Assembly (NCBI RefSeq): GCF_000765235.1
Contig: NZ_JPJG01000049.1
Span: forward strand, 1-40,888
Direction of reading: 5' to 3'
DNA length: 40,888 nucleotides
DNA from: Oscillibacter sp. ER4
GTDB taxonomy: Bacteria; Bacillota; Clostridia; Oscillospirales; Oscillospiraceae
The notes under the pieces are model-generated. The model was not told where the DNA came from. It ran no database searches and saw only the letters and a program-made list of their open reading frames with translations. Each line of letters opens with the position of its first letter. Position 1 is the first letter of the stretch. A program made the position numbers and the translations under genes. Positions 37,420 through 40,888 of the stretch are shown piece after piece.

Positions 37420-38418
37420 ATGAAAGCGATTCTTGATGAAATGCTCGCGGCCCTTTCGCGCGGCGAGCGTGTGGTGCTGAGCAGCATTCTGGCATCCTCG
37501 GGCTCTGTGCCGCGCGGCGCGGGGGCGAAGATGGCCGTCTTTGAAGATGGCCGCGTGCTCGGCACGATCGGTGGCGGCGCGGTGGAGCGGCTGAGCATCC
37601 AGCGCGCGCAGGACGCGCTCAAAAACGGCGGCAGCAACGAGCTCAAGTCCTACAACCTGCACCCGAGTGAAGTGGCCAGCACGGGCATGATCTGCGGCGG
37701 CGCGGTGACGGTCTACTTCCAGTTTTTCGCGCCCGAGCAGGCGGCGGATATCGCGGTGCTCAAGCGCTGGCGCGAAATGCTCGACAAAGATGTCGACCTA
37801 TGGCTGCTGCTGTCTCTTGACGGCGACGGCGTGAACGAATTCCACGTCGTCACGCGCGAGGAGATTCCGCAGGACAAGGCGGACTATTTTTCTGCCAAGG
37901 CCGTGTGGAAGAACGGCATTTATGTCGAGCCGCTGTGCCACGCGGGCAGCGTGTATATCTTCGGCGGCGGCCATGTGGGCCGCGCGCTTGTGCCGGTGCT
38001 GGCGACGGTGGGCTTCCGCGTGGTGATGTACGACAACCGCGAGGAGCTTGCGAAGAAAGAGCACTATCCCATGGCGAGCGAGGTCATCTGCGGCAGCTTT
38101 TCCGACATTTCCGGCAAGGTGGCGCTCACGGCGAACGACTATGCCGTCGTGATGACGCCGGGCCATCAGGCAGACTATGAGATCCTCTCCCAGGTGCTTA
38201 AGAGCAGCGCGACCTATATCGGCTGCATCGGCAGCCGCACGAAGGTCGCCAAGACGCGCGAGCGCCTCAAGGGTGACGGCTATACCGAAGAGGACATCGC
38301 GCGCGTCCACGCGCCCATCGGCCTTCCGATCCTGGCCGAGACGCCGGAGGAGATCGCCATCAGCATCGCGGCGGAGATGATCGAGCACCGCGCGCGCCTC
38401 GCCGGACAGCGGCACTGA
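37420..38418 (+). CDS. xdhC: XdhC/CoxI family molybdenum hydroxylase maturation protein
   Basis: The 332-residue protein has the XdhC layout. The N-terminal XdhC/CoxI domain (about 1-85) contains LASSGSVPRGAGAKMAV and GTIGGGAVE. The C-terminal Rossmann domain has YIFGGGHVGRALVPVL starting at residue 179 and ends with YIGCIGSRTK and GLPILAETPEEIAISIAAEMI. XdhC proteins bind molybdenum cofactor and insert its sulfurated form, or in this system probably help insert the selenium-containing form, into xanthine dehydrogenase-type enzymes. AAAGGAG about 10 bases before ATG 37420 sets the start. yqeC follows after 10 bases. Confidence 0.93.
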   Translation: MKAILDEMLAALSRGERVVLSSILASSGSVPRGAGAKMAVFEDGRVLGTIGGGAVERLSIQRAQDALKNGGSNELKSYNLHPSEVASTGMICGGAVTVYFQFFAPEQAADIAVLKRWREMLDKDVDLWLLLSLDGDGVNEFHVVTREEIPQDKADYFSAKAVWKNGIYVEPLCHAGSVYIFGGGHVGRALVPVLATVGFRVVMYDNREELAKKEHYPMASEVICGSFSDISGKVALTANDYAVVMTPGHQADYEILSQVLKSSATYIGCIGSRTKVAKTRERLKGDGYTEEDIARVHAPIGLPILAETPEEIAISIAAEMIEHRARLAGQRH

Positions 38419-38428
38419 GGGCGCTCAC

Positions 38429-39100
38429 ATGCAGATCGCACCGCTTTTGCACGTCGGCCGCGGCGTGACGGCCATCATCGGCGGCGGCGGAAAGACGACG
38501 CTGATGGAAACGCTCGCCGGGGAGCTTTCGAAAAAGGGTAAGGTCATTATCACGACCACAACGCACATCTGCCGTCCGAAGCAGTATGAAACGCTGCTGG
38601 ATGCGGACGAGGCCGCCGTTTCGGCGGCATTGGAGCGGTCGGGCATCGTCTGTGTTGCCTCGCAGGCGGAGAGCGGCAAGCTCTGCGCGCCGCGGCTCTC
38701 AATGGGCACGCTGGTGCAGCTTGCGGATTTTGTGCTTGTCGAGGCGGACGGTGCCAAGCACCTGCCGCTCAAGGCGCACGCTTCCCATGAGCCGGTGATC
38801 CCGGAGGAGGCGCAGCGTGTCATCATGGTCATCGGCATCGACGGCGTCGGCAAAACCATCCGCGAGACCTGCCACCGCAGCGCGCTCTACGCGCAGCTCG
38901 CGGGCGTGGATGAGGAGACGGTCGTCACGCCGCAGCTTGCCGCGCGCGTCGTCAACGCCGAGGGTTACGGCGACCGCGTTTATATCAACAAGGTGGAGTC
39001 TGCCGCCGATTATGAAGCGGCGCAGGCCATGGCAAATGAATTTTCCTGCCCGGTCATCGCGGGCAGTCTGCATCAGGGGGTATATGTATGCTTGCATTGA
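38429..39100 (+). CDS. yqeC: Selenium cofactor biosynthesis protein YqeC
   Basis: The 223-residue protein is of the YqeC type, linked by comparative genomics to selenium-dependent molybdenum hydroxylases. A P-loop-like GGGGKTT occurs at 18-24, followed by ITTTTHICRP, FVLVEADGAKHLPLKAHASHEPVIP and INKVES, the usual order for this NTPase-like family. The exact reaction has not been established; a role in making or inserting the labile selenium ligand is inferred from genomic association. The start at ATG 38429 has only a weak GAGG upstream, consistent with coupling to xdhC. Its end overlaps yqeB by 13 bases. Confidence 0.92.
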   Translation: MQIAPLLHVGRGVTAIIGGGGKTTLMETLAGELSKKGKVIITTTTHICRPKQYETLLDADEAAVSAALERSGIVCVASQAESGKLCAPRLSMGTLVQLADFVLVEADGAKHLPLKAHASHEPVIPEEAQRVIMVIGIDGVGKTIRETCHRSALYAQLAGVDEETVVTPQLAARVVNAEGYGDRVYINKVESAADYEAAQAMANEFSCPVIAGSLHQGVYVCLH

Positions 39101-39888
39101 TTCGCGGCGCGGGAGACATCGCGAGCGGCGCGGCCATGAGATTGTGGCGCTGCGGGATCGACGTGGTGATGACCGACCTCGCCCGCCCGACGGCCATCCG
39201 CCGCACGGTGGCGTTTTCCGATGCCATCGTCCACGGGGAAACGACGGTCGAGGGTCTGCGCGCCGTGCGCGCGGAGAACGCCGCGGAGGCGAAGAAGCTG
39301 CTGCGCGAGGGTGTGCTGCCTGTTTTAGCTGACCCTGAGTGCGCCTGCCGCGAGGAGCTCGCGCCCGACGCGCTCGTGGACGCGATTCTTGCCAAGCGCA
39401 ATCTCGGCACGAAGATCGACGACGCGCCGATCGTCGTGGGCGTCGGCCCCGGCTTCACGGCGGGGGAGAACTGCCACGCGGTCGTCGAGACGATGCGCGG
39501 CCACACGCTCGGGCGCGTCATCTACTCCGGCAGCGCGCTGCCGAATACGAACATTCCGGGCTTCATCGGCGGCTTTGCGGGCGAGCGCGTGCTGCGCGCG
39601 CCGTGCGACGGCATTTTCACTGCCGTTCACCGCATCGGCGACACGGTCGAGGAGGGCGAGACCATCGGTTTTGTCGAGGGTCAGCCGATGAAGTGCACCA
39701 TCAGCGGTGTGCTGCGCGGCGTGCTGGACGATGGCGTGTCCGTTAAGAAGGGGATGAAGTCCGGCGATGTCGACCCGCGCTGCAAGCCGGAATACTGCAC
39801 GACGATCTCGGACAAGGCCCTCGCCGTCGGCGGGGGAGTGGTCGAAGCGGTGCTGTATTTGAGCGCGAAACAACAGGGCAGACGTTGA
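39088..39888 (+). CDS. yqeB: Selenium-dependent molybdenum hydroxylase system protein YqeB (EF2563 family)
   Basis: The 266-residue protein belongs to the YqeB/EF2563 family. It begins LIRGAGDIASGAAMRLWRCG (4-23), a dinucleotide-binding-like loop, and contains VGVGPGFTAGENCHAVVETMRGH and later IGFVEGQPMKCTISGVLRG, a biotinyl-domain-like stretch. The family marks genomes using selenium-dependent molybdenum hydroxylases, such as purine-degrading xanthine dehydrogenases; its biochemical role is unknown. It overlaps yqeC by 13 bases and ends the operon. None of the hydroxylase subunits or selD is in the window. Confidence 0.92.
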   Translation: MLALIRGAGDIASGAAMRLWRCGIDVVMTDLARPTAIRRTVAFSDAIVHGETTVEGLRAVRAENAAEAKKLLREGVLPVLADPECACREELAPDALVDAILAKRNLGTKIDDAPIVVGVGPGFTAGENCHAVVETMRGHTLGRVIYSGSALPNTNIPGFIGGFAGERVLRAPCDGIFTAVHRIGDTVEEGETIGFVEGQPMKCTISGVLRGVLDDGVSVKKGMKSGDVDPRCKPEYCTTISDKALAVGGGVVEAVLYLSAKQQGRR

Positions 39889-39939
39889 TATGCCCTGCAC
39901 TGCGCGGGAGATGTCCCATTGGCATGGGACTGCGCGGGG

Positions 39940-39979
39940 CAAAGGGGGCCTTCTCTCACGTGAGAGAAGGCCCCCTTTG
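39940..39979. repeat. Perfect 40-base palindrome
   Basis: Positions 39940-39959 are the exact reverse complement of 39960-39979, with no loop, centred on CACGTG and flanked by CCTTCTCT/AGAGAAGG and G5/C5 runs. The right half is also the outer end of the left repeat arm of the cassette that follows. A loop-free palindrome of this length is not a normal terminator and points to a repeat-end or replication/transposition product. Confidence 0.85.
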
Positions 39980-40119
39980 AATCCCCCAAGAGAACGGCAG
40001 GGGCGTTTCGATCTCGCCCCTGCACCCCTAACGACCAAAAGAGAGGGGCCTTGCCCCTCCTTTTTGGATTATCCACCCCGCTGTTGCTTCTGACGGCGCG
40101 GCATTGCTGCGCTCGCCGC
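39960..40119. repeat. Left arm of a long inverted repeat (cassette boundary)
   Basis: About 115 bases (39963-40078) reappear in inverted orientation at 40767-40888 with only a few mismatches. A second block of 22 bases (40098-40119) reappears inverted at 40682-40703 with one mismatch. Within the arm are self-complementary stems such as GCAGGGGCG/CGCCCCTGC and GAGGGGC/GCCCCTC followed by T5, so its transcript folds into several hairpins and could terminate. The gene-free stretch 39889-40136 consists of this arm, the palindrome and a 7-base hairpin (39913-39930). Confidence 0.85.
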
Positions 40120-40136
40120 TTAGGGGTACTGCTTTT

Positions 40137-40343
40137 TTAGCCTTTTGCTGGGTCGGCACTGCTGTAGTCATTGCTGATGGGCTCATCGGAAATGATGTCG
40201 TGTGAAAGGACTTGGTCTTCTGCGTCCAACAGGGCTTTTTTCAGGACTTCACGGGCAAGAATGCCTTTACCTTCGTCGTAAAGGTCGATGGCTTCGCTCA
40301 TACTGCGTACCATCAAGTGGTATAGCGTTTTATAAGTCGTCAT
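40137..40343 (-). CDS. Small hypothetical protein of 68 residues
   Basis: I do not recognise this protein. From ATG 40343 it is 68 residues, beginning MTTYKTLYHLMVRSMSEAID and continuing as a predominantly helical, acidic protein (REVLKKALLDAEDQVL) with a polar tail. An upstream ATG at 40361 would lie inside the -10 of its promoter, so 40343 is preferred, although no strong ribosome-binding site is visible. It is divergent from an XRE-type regulator gene 82 bases away, within the inverted-repeat-bounded cassette, and is AT-richer than the repeats. A repressor-partner, antitoxin-like or anti-repressor role is possible but unsupported. Confidence 0.6.
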   Translation of the reverse strand: MTTYKTLYHLMVRSMSEAIDLYDEGKGILAREVLKKALLDAEDQVLSHDIISDEPISNDYSSADPAKG

Positions 40344-40360
40344 CTTATCAGCTCTACACA

Positions 40361-40393
40361 ATTATAGGTCAATATCACCCTATTATCAATAGG
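40361..40393 (-). promoter_or_regulatory. Divergent promoter region with repeated ATAGG/CCTAT half-sites
   Basis: On the minus strand TTGATA (40389-40384) and consensus TATAAT (40366-40361) are 17 bases apart, a strong promoter for the small gene. Half-sites ATAGG (40364-40368), CCTAT (40379-40383) and ATAGG (40389-40393) form inverted pairs, including CCTATT/AATAGG around ATC, overlapping the -10 and -35. These are good candidates for binding by the XRE protein. For that gene, a TGCCATAAT extended -10 lies near 40401-40409. Confidence 0.6.
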
Positions 40394-40425
40394 CCAATTT
40401 GCCATAATTTTGTTGGGGTGATTAG

Positions 40426-40644
40426 ATGACTCGTATGAAAGAACTGCGCAAAAAGAAAGGCTTCTCACAGGTTAGAATGCAGATGCTGACGGGAATTGAC
40501 CAGAGCGATTATTCAAAAATCGAGACCGGCAAACGAAATATGAGCTTTGAACAGTGCCGCCGCATCGCCCTTGCCTTGGAAACCAGCATGGACTATCTCG
40601 CCGGCTTGACCGACCAGGACACCCCCTATCCCAGAACAAAGTAA
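40426..40644 (+). CDS. XRE-family helix-turn-helix transcriptional regulator
   Basis: The 72-residue protein is essentially a single Cro/cI-type helix-turn-helix domain (about 4-60): MKELRKKKGFSQVRMQMLTG, then the recognition helix region DQSDYSKIETGKRNMSFEQC, then RRIALALETSMDYLAGL. The short C-terminal tail has no sensor domain. GGGGTG about seven bases before ATG 40426 supports the start. It is divergent from the 68-residue gene, with repeated half-sites between them, so autoregulation and repression of the neighbour are expected. Such small regulators are typical of mobile or toxin-antitoxin-like cassettes. A terminator overlaps its stop codon. Confidence 0.9.
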   Translation: MTRMKELRKKKGFSQVRMQMLTGIDQSDYSKIETGKRNMSFEQCRRIALALETSMDYLAGLTDQDTPYPRTK

Positions 40645-40670
40645 AACGACCGCTGACGCGGTCGTTTTTT
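40643..40670 (+). terminator. Terminator of the XRE regulator gene
   Basis: AAAACGACCGC (40643-40653) pairs perfectly with 40658-40668 around TGAC and ends in a T-run. It begins at the stop codon. Confidence 0.9.
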
Positions 40671-40681
40671 CTATTAGAAGC

Positions 40682-40888
40682 GCGGCGAGCGAAGCAATGC
40701 CGCCTCGGTACGCACTGCTGAAACGGAATTATCCAAAGTAGACGTAGTTCTTACCGGAAGTGCCATGGGGAGGATAATCCAAAAAGGAGGGGCGAGGCCC
40801 CTCCCTTTTGGTCGTTAGGGGGTGCAGGGGGCGAAATCGAAACGCCCCCTGCCTTTCTCTTGGGGGATTCAAAGGGGGAGGTTCTCTT
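40682..40888. repeat. Right arm of the long inverted repeat, cut by the window end
   Basis: The segment 40767-40888 is the inverted copy of 39963-40078, and 40682-40703 is the inverted copy of 40098-40119. Between these two blocks the right side has about 60 extra bases not found on the left. The similarity runs to the last bases of the window, so the true outer end lies beyond it. Confidence 0.85.

Follow-up and report, generated by a model that had tools for sequence, protein, structure and literature searches.

The window, that is, the whole stretch of DNA analyzed, is a complete contig of 40,888 nt (C87) from Oscillibacter sp. ER4, and it terminates inside the right arm of a cassette in which inverted repeats enclose a small gene, S, and a divergent regulator gene. 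The features of the cassette are given below; L009 is another copy in the same genome.

39906..40119 (+): left arm, type B, from the outermost base common with L009 to the inner box; 39906-40078 is 95% identical to L009 1732-1904, while the flanking gene differs
39913..39930: outer hairpin GTCCCATTGGCATGGGAC, common to L009
39940..39979: terminal hairpin, a perfect 20+20 palindrome with the core CTCTCACGTGAGAG, found by repeat search; compensatory changes across copies
39971..40079 (+): left inverted-repeat arm, 93% identical to 40767-40878 reversed
40098..40119 (+): left copy of the 22-bp box, at the edge of the cargo; the box matches 46 times in the genome
40137..40343 (-): gene S in its best reading, 68 aa; modeled as a two-helix hairpin
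40344..40425: divergent promoter/operator region, 35% G+C, half-sites TAGGYCAAT; by eye, the spacer is different in every cargo copy
40361..40389 (-): promoter-like site for S, TTGATA-17-TATAAT, 11/12, a consensus match only
40426..40644 (+): regulator of the XRE family, 72 aa; HTH_3, E 7e-12
40643..40668 (+): terminator-like hairpin 3' of the regulator; homology of the window with L009, L010, and L011 resumes about here
40682..40703 (-): 22-bp box, right inverted copy, from the repeat search and the genome box count
40767..40878 (-): right inverted-repeat arm, from the repeat search and BLAST
40870..40888 (-): beginning of the right terminal hairpin, which the contig end truncates; in contigs C57 and C40, which open with the last 81 bp of the window, a hairpin is completed

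The repeat search split the arms into two inverted blocks, 40025-40079/40767-40821 (55 nt, 95% identical) and 39971-40003/40846-40878 (33 nt, 97% identical), which BLAST joined into a single match at 93% identity. The 22-nt block, 40098-40119/40682-40703, is also inverted and 95% identical. Exact inverted matches between distant positions reach 24 nt, compared with a maximum of 16 nt in 300 dinucleotide shuffles. The inverted arms of about 115 bp and the 22-bp block described in an earlier note on this sequence are thus real and far above chance. Its account of the interior also agrees with our results, as the arms enclose an XRE regulator, a divergent gene, and a divergent promoter with half-sites in an AT-richer unit: the G+C content of 40120-40681 is 46.6%, as against 62.6% and 57.0% for the two arms and 59.3% for the contig. 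No transposase-like gene was seen among the ORFs inspected in the enclosed unit.

The note had placed the element at 39960-40888. The arms within this interval are confirmed, but the left border lies further out: homology with L009, which is located beside a different gene, begins at 39906, and therefore the element includes the outer hairpin and the 40-bp palindrome at 39940-39979. Beyond both terminal hairpins of the 22 complete copies, inspection shows an additional outer hairpin whose sequence varies and which is imperfect in some cases. Folded as single-stranded DNA, 39940-40080 has a z-score of -9.3. The right end is lost where the contig stops; the last 81 bp of the window (40808-40888) also open contigs C57 and C40 (L035 and L036). 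The assembly breaks at these repeats, and the right neighbor of the window is ambiguous, being either C57 or C40. On the left, three genes at 37420-39888 precede the cassette, which we take to be the XdhC-like, YqeC-like, and YqeB-like set for selenium-dependent molybdenum hydroxylases. In relatives, yqeB runs on into other genes, and the element is absent.

The half-sites in 40344-40425 are TAGGTCAAT, TAGGCCAAT, and CCTATT...AATAGG, and they overlap the -35/-10 match for S, although 0.5 such promoter sites are expected in the region by chance. S has no match in Pfam or NCBIfam. Its AlphaFold2 model, built with no alignment, consists of helices 4-23 and 27-46 with a mean pLDDT of 79.7; a fold search yielded 36 matches at E <= 10, none of them at E <= 0.001, a two-helix hairpin being too simple. 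In PADLOC, S has no match, and the XRE protein matches 17 models, the best being capH (E 5e-11). We rejected a defence reading of the latter result, as generic XRE proteins would match such models. The XRE protein also matches the RstR family model with E 1e-13, yet below the cut-off of that model.

The cassette belongs to a repeat family. BLAST yielded at least 113 matches in the genome to the cassette region, at least 89 to the left arm, and at least 96 to a ~500-bp member, scored from 40 of 93, 91, and 104 first-look candidates, respectively; these are not copy numbers, because palindromes match both strands. The 22-bp box occurs 46 times, allowing for up to one mismatch, and its reversed control does not occur. 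Among the loci around the matches, we found 22 complete elements with both ends, 18 of them cargo-free and four with cargo, while the window copy and the L010 copy are truncated by contig ends. The cargo-free copies measure 469-542 bp between the hairpin cores, and their left and right ends are mostly distinct. Fourteen of them have one box, two (L024 and L026) have two inverted boxes, and in two more (L023 and L030) none was recognized, so the box rule is looser here than in copies with cargo. In L024 (2255, 2383) and L026 (2191, 2319), the inverted boxes are ~106 bp apart, possibly representing a docking or leftover state of the cargo.

The ends are of two kinds, with the hairpin core TTCTCTCACGTGAGAGAA or cores like TTCTCTTTCGTGAAAGAGAA. 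Inward of both, there is CCCCAAGAGAA or a variant, and an inner CAAGAGAA-like motif is inverted between the two hairpin ends. A script's count of 81 ends bearing the inner motif includes three or more false ones, and we therefore quote no total. The hairpin ends are strong, with C-runs followed by T-runs, and often lie past gene ends. In a covariation test that used 27 of 40 distinct left ends, 97.5% of cells in the terminal hairpin were paired and both partners had changed in 8 of 18 pairs, a level that none of 500 shuffles reached. The terminal hairpins are thus kept by compensatory change, whose origin may be selection or template switching. An Rfam scan of the window region yielded sub-threshold matches only.

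The family is narrowly distributed. Arm matches were found in 3 of 18 genomes of the genus, namely this genome, G010 (six places), and G011 (one place), that is, in 2 of the 17 others. The exact end signature is present 36 times here and five times in G010, where at least one of the five looks like chance; among 300 genomes searched, 12 others have it once or twice each, again chance-like. In viral contigs, we found no relative of S and no match to two arm patterns.

Cargo of one design was found in six copies: the 22-bp box, S transcribed leftwards, an operator, a regulator transcribed rightwards, and the inverted box; the right box of L159, as read from the sequence, has three mismatches. 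The copies are listed below, with arm types A and B according to our own assignment.

Window copy: S1 and XRE; arm type B
L009 copy: S1 and a different XRE, separated by an IS1182-type insertion; arm type B
L011 copy: S1 and an Arc-like protein; arm type A
L012 copy: S1 and a Cro-type HTH_26 protein; arm type A
L010 copy: S2 and an HTH_26-type protein; arm type B
L159 copy: S2 and a ribbon-helix-helix-type repressor; arm type A

As cargo is found in both arm types, cargo and arms have recombined. The IS1182-type transposase (L009 2446-3677), comprised of two ORFs (DDE_Tnp_1 and DUF772), is located between S and the regulator in this one of the six cargo copies.

The S1 proteins are 75-81% identical to S of the window, and S2 is distant, at about 20%. 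The HTH regulators of this genome are 19-26% identical to the window XRE, and the two ribbon-helix-helix-type regulators have no BLAST match to each other. The DNA homology between copies has defined breakpoints. Between the window and L011, it breaks off at 40348, 5 nt upstream of the start of S (40343), and returns at 40643, at the stop codon of the regulator; for L009, the break is at 40363, 20 nt upstream of the start of S, with homology returning at that stop codon as well (40643). With L010, which carries S2 and has no BLAST match to the window over S, homology resumes at 40638. With L012, it ends on the S side at 40312, inside S, and begins on the other side only at 40678, by the box. 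By eye, the palindromic half-sites also differ from copy to copy, e.g., TAGAACA/TGTTCTA, TTAACTC/GAGTTAA, ATAGTAAC/GTTACTAT, and GTATGCTAA/TTAGCATAC. A table of spacer identities from global alignment was uninformative, with 75% for the shuffled control, and we preferred the BLAST breakpoints. These breakpoints show that the operator-regulator stretch has been replaced between copies while S and the terminator/box were retained, most clearly in the window, L009, and L011.

Between copies, dN/dS of S is 0.06-0.15, with one pair saturated, which shows purifying selection on S. At synonymous sites, the divergence between S copies is 44-76%. Hence, the cargo copies are not recent duplicates, and either concerted evolution or separate captures are needed. 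Moreover, the arms are 93-95% alike (95% for the window and L009), which means that the arms have been homogenized or the cargo exchanged.

A search of the genome contigs with S confirmed no relative. A profile of nine S proteins found S in 53 of 150 genomes of the family, with seven copies in this genome and 20 in G138, a genome from another genus. The seventh copy in this genome (contig C2, L210 1176-1668) is a free-standing pair of S and XRE ~110 bp beyond a cargo-free element, and it is a possible source of cargo. By our own classification of 29 other S loci in the family, 20 have a divergent DNA-binding-type gene, three a leader RNA, and four no recognized partner; one is cut by a contig start, and one is a G138 repeat. 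Of the 25 partners scanned against Pfam, HTH_3 was found in 11 and HTH_26 in nine, the sets overlapping, while several ribbon-helix-helix partners, lacking a significant Pfam match, were assigned by eye. A flanking inverted repeat of at least 20 nt is absent at 18 of the 20 S/regulator pairs and at L210, whereas all six enclosed controls have such repeats (25-147 nt). The two exceptions are L178, with 25 nt, and L179, with a 37-nt hairpin on both sides. In the latter (~1474-1997), from another genus, the hairpin is G+C-rich and flanks S and XRE, and the locus may be an independent element built on this plan.

The varied partners, the leader RNA, and the repeat-free pairs show that S accepts many kinds of control and that the pair is older than the repeat. 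The S/regulator pair is therefore passenger DNA of an older kind, not repeat-derived by origin. The earlier note had listed two observations as speaking against its own idea, namely arms that are always single and fixed, and the pair conserved away from the repeats. The former is not the case, as the copies are dispersed and absent at comparable sites of relatives; the latter is, given the pairs at 20 of 29 family loci, 18 of them repeat-free, and the one on C2. Its main idea was largely right, except that the pair also occurs away from the repeats.

In G138, S is found in a repeated unit of ~670 bp (L196 2555-3222, L197 2614-3439, L199 2185-2998). No regulator gene was seen in the copies that we read, and several of the 20 S matches lie within 300 bp of a contig start. 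The unit has a divergent TTGAAA-17-TATAAT promoter ahead of a hairpin-rich stretch; a 24-bp inverted repeat is present at the ends in L197, and L196 and L199 lack it.

A leader RNA of ~210 nt, with an intrinsic terminator at its end, was found in other genomes (L045 1640-1851, minus strand; L237 1501-1713, plus strand; L238; L239-L249; L256). In some of them, it is located upstream of S; elsewhere, it precedes other genes, assigned by eye as secreted, lipoprotein, SLH, and ligase genes. At E <= 0.001, the leader RNA model R1 has matches in 19 of the 120 genomes of the family that were searched and none in this genome. Compensatory changes were seen at 39 of 56 pairs among 16 distinct sequences, a level that none of 500 shuffles reached, in an alignment fitted to the model, and no overlapping Rfam match was found in the loci scanned. 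We consider it a candidate for a new attenuator or riboswitch-like class.

A search with the 18-bp hairpin core returned 18 stretches in other genomes, of which 17 have an CAAAGAGAACGC-type end or a variant; one core match, L078, proved unrelated. In three other assemblies, the repeats end in GTTACTTTCTCTCACGTGAGAGAAAGTAAC followed by CAAAGAGAACGC. Two of the 18 loci, from different assemblies, are complete elements, L083 (1.27 kb) and L093 (1.07 kb), with flanking inverted repeats of 147 and 76 nt, respectively. In both, the enclosed genes encode a DUF6809-like protein and, divergently, an XRE protein; the DUF6809 match in L083 (E 4e-4) is below its cut-off, and L093 was judged by its similarity to L083. 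In L050 of G010, rnhA and an XRE gene lie between two related hairpins separated by 1.2 kb.

Several lines of evidence bear on mobility. Copies of the family lie next to unrelated genes, and their homology stops at defined ends; the arm is dispersed both alone and paired. None of 13 yqeB loci of relatives, one of them a gene fragment only, has an element within 350 nt after yqeB. When 34 element intervals were compared with ~0.4 Mb of G010, both flanks were found on one stretch in six cases. At L011 and L145, the flanks are rearranged in G010. The nadE-rpsT locus of G010 is rearranged and was rejected as an empty site. At the four colinear sites, all of cargo-free copies (L026, L141, L019, and L144), the element is absent from G010 in each case, albeit at the distance of a species. 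On the other hand, the target duplications that the earlier note proposed to look for were not found in the 22 complete copies, where the suffix/prefix match averaged 0.27 nt against 0.53 nt for mismatched flanks. The comparison was placed at the terminal hairpin, and the precise position of the outer border is uncertain. The Y1 family (PF01797), the only one covered by our search for a mobilizing enzyme, is absent from this genome, which is 98% complete, and the control matched in 5 of 14. No parent transposon with the same ends was seen among the loci examined; the IS1182-type transposase of L009 lies inside one cargo copy. Of the features of MITEs or other non-autonomous transposons, dispersed transposase-free copies, inverted ends, and empty sites in relatives are present, and the target-site duplication is absent. 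The earlier reading of a non-autonomous, MITE-like cassette, the first of two alternatives in the note, fits the dispersed family, the five other loci with S cargo, and the relatives lacking the element, and is in this sense partly supported.

Judging from sequence comparison, the element family has been dispersed and multiplied in the species, with the cargo design repeated in six copies. We regard as probable that the cassette is a cargo copy of a transposase-less, hairpin-ended, MITE-like element that is moved in trans and carries an autoregulated effector with an exchangeable repressor-operator module. The hairpin ends would be recognized by an enzyme encoded elsewhere, and copies would insert in intergenic spacers. 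S may be the functional product, a small helical protein. The regulator would be an autorepressor acting on its own half-sites and holding down both its own promoter and that of S; since the half-sites overlap the -35 of S, it probably represses both divergent promoters. Recombination between the S start and the terminator/box would exchange the operator-regulator module, and copies in one cell may thereby answer to different repressors. Only the exchange is shown; its consequence, the release of a copy from repression by sister copies, is our hypothesis. A further suggestion, tentative and with a small chance of being right, is that this is a minimal mobile element with a constant effector and an exchangeable repressor, in which each copy would form its own immunity group and escape cross-repression, so that many could coexist, the same plan having been built again with DUF6809-like proteins in other genomes.

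Some of the same data could be read differently. The repeats could be fixed structures, either bidirectional terminators or chromosome-organizing, REP-like hairpins grown in place through recombination and template switching, with gene pairs lying by chance between inverted copies. The strong ends with C-runs and T-runs, often after gene ends, would fit this, as would the lack of target duplications and of a mobilizing enzyme within the Y1 family; template switching, like selection, can yield palindromic variants, and the species distance permits old loss in relatives. Still, fixed repeats do not easily account for the near-constant length of the 18 cargo-free copies, their mostly distinct left and right ends, the absence of the element at comparable sites of relatives, and the defined ends of homology beside unrelated genes, and we find this explanation unlikely. 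We are more doubtful of a toxin-antitoxin-like addiction module, with S as the toxin and the regulator as the antitoxin, stabilizing the element. A small pair with an autoregulator-type protein on a repeated element, and purifying selection on S, would be expected of it, but unrelated regulator folds are paired with S proteins that are 75-81% identical, making a shared S-binding surface unlikely. Moreover, the genes are divergent rather than co-transcribed, as type II systems with a toxin-binding antitoxin would be, no regulator was recognized in 9 of 29 family loci (one cut by a contig start), three of which have the leader RNA instead, and PADLOC did not recognize S. Finally, a divergent promoter flanked by inverted repeats might suggest an invertible switch, with the arms or boxes flipping the central promoter region. 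This is very improbable: both genes lie wholly within the repeats and a terminator-like hairpin follows the regulator, so flipping would alter little downstream. Nor did we see a recombinase-like ORF in the unit, and 14 of 18 cargo-free copies have a single box.

Transposase-less repeats are usually regarded as inert. Here, several repeats of one genome carry a selected gene and a replaceable switch at defined breakpoints, and repeats elsewhere carry other genes. Whether tiny elements coexist through repressor exchange can be tested now, and the copies may yield a set of orthogonal repressor-operator pairs. In addition, the repeats explain the contig breaks of such genomes. Among the titles listed in our literature search, which covered mostly open papers, none describes such an element.

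Among known systems, REP/REPIN-RAYT repeats are palindromic, intergenic, and of high copy number, their hairpins being likely recognition sites (PMC8266576). The present family is also comprised of intergenic, palindromic, high-copy repeats, but its members are 500-2500 bp long rather than tens of bp, some carry genes, and the genome has no Y1 (TnpA-REP) gene. MITEs are similar in having dispersed copies of ~500 bp with inverted ends and no internal transposase; our family differs by the lack of duplications and of a visible parent transposon, by the hairpin at each end, and by the conserved genes in some copies. Mobile insertion cassettes, such as MIC231 of Bacillus cereus, are transposase-less, carry passenger genes between mobile ends, and are thought to be moved in trans; these ends are those of a known insertion sequence, IS231. 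Published accounts describe such cassettes as dependent on an active transposase (PMC6542083; a further source is PMC2266710). The transposase-less body with passenger genes is common to MIC231 and the present cassette, while the composite hairpin ends, the absence of a visible IS partner and of a target duplication, and the regulator exchanged between copies set the latter apart. In CTX phages, exchange of the RstR type leaves the element conserved while the repressor and its operator vary between types. The cassette is alike in that the repressor and operator vary on a constant element, and its XRE protein matches the RstR model, albeit below the cut-off; it differs in having no phage genes and in employing regulators of several folds. 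Thus, non-autonomous elements carrying passengers are already known, and what is unusual here is the exchange of the switch.
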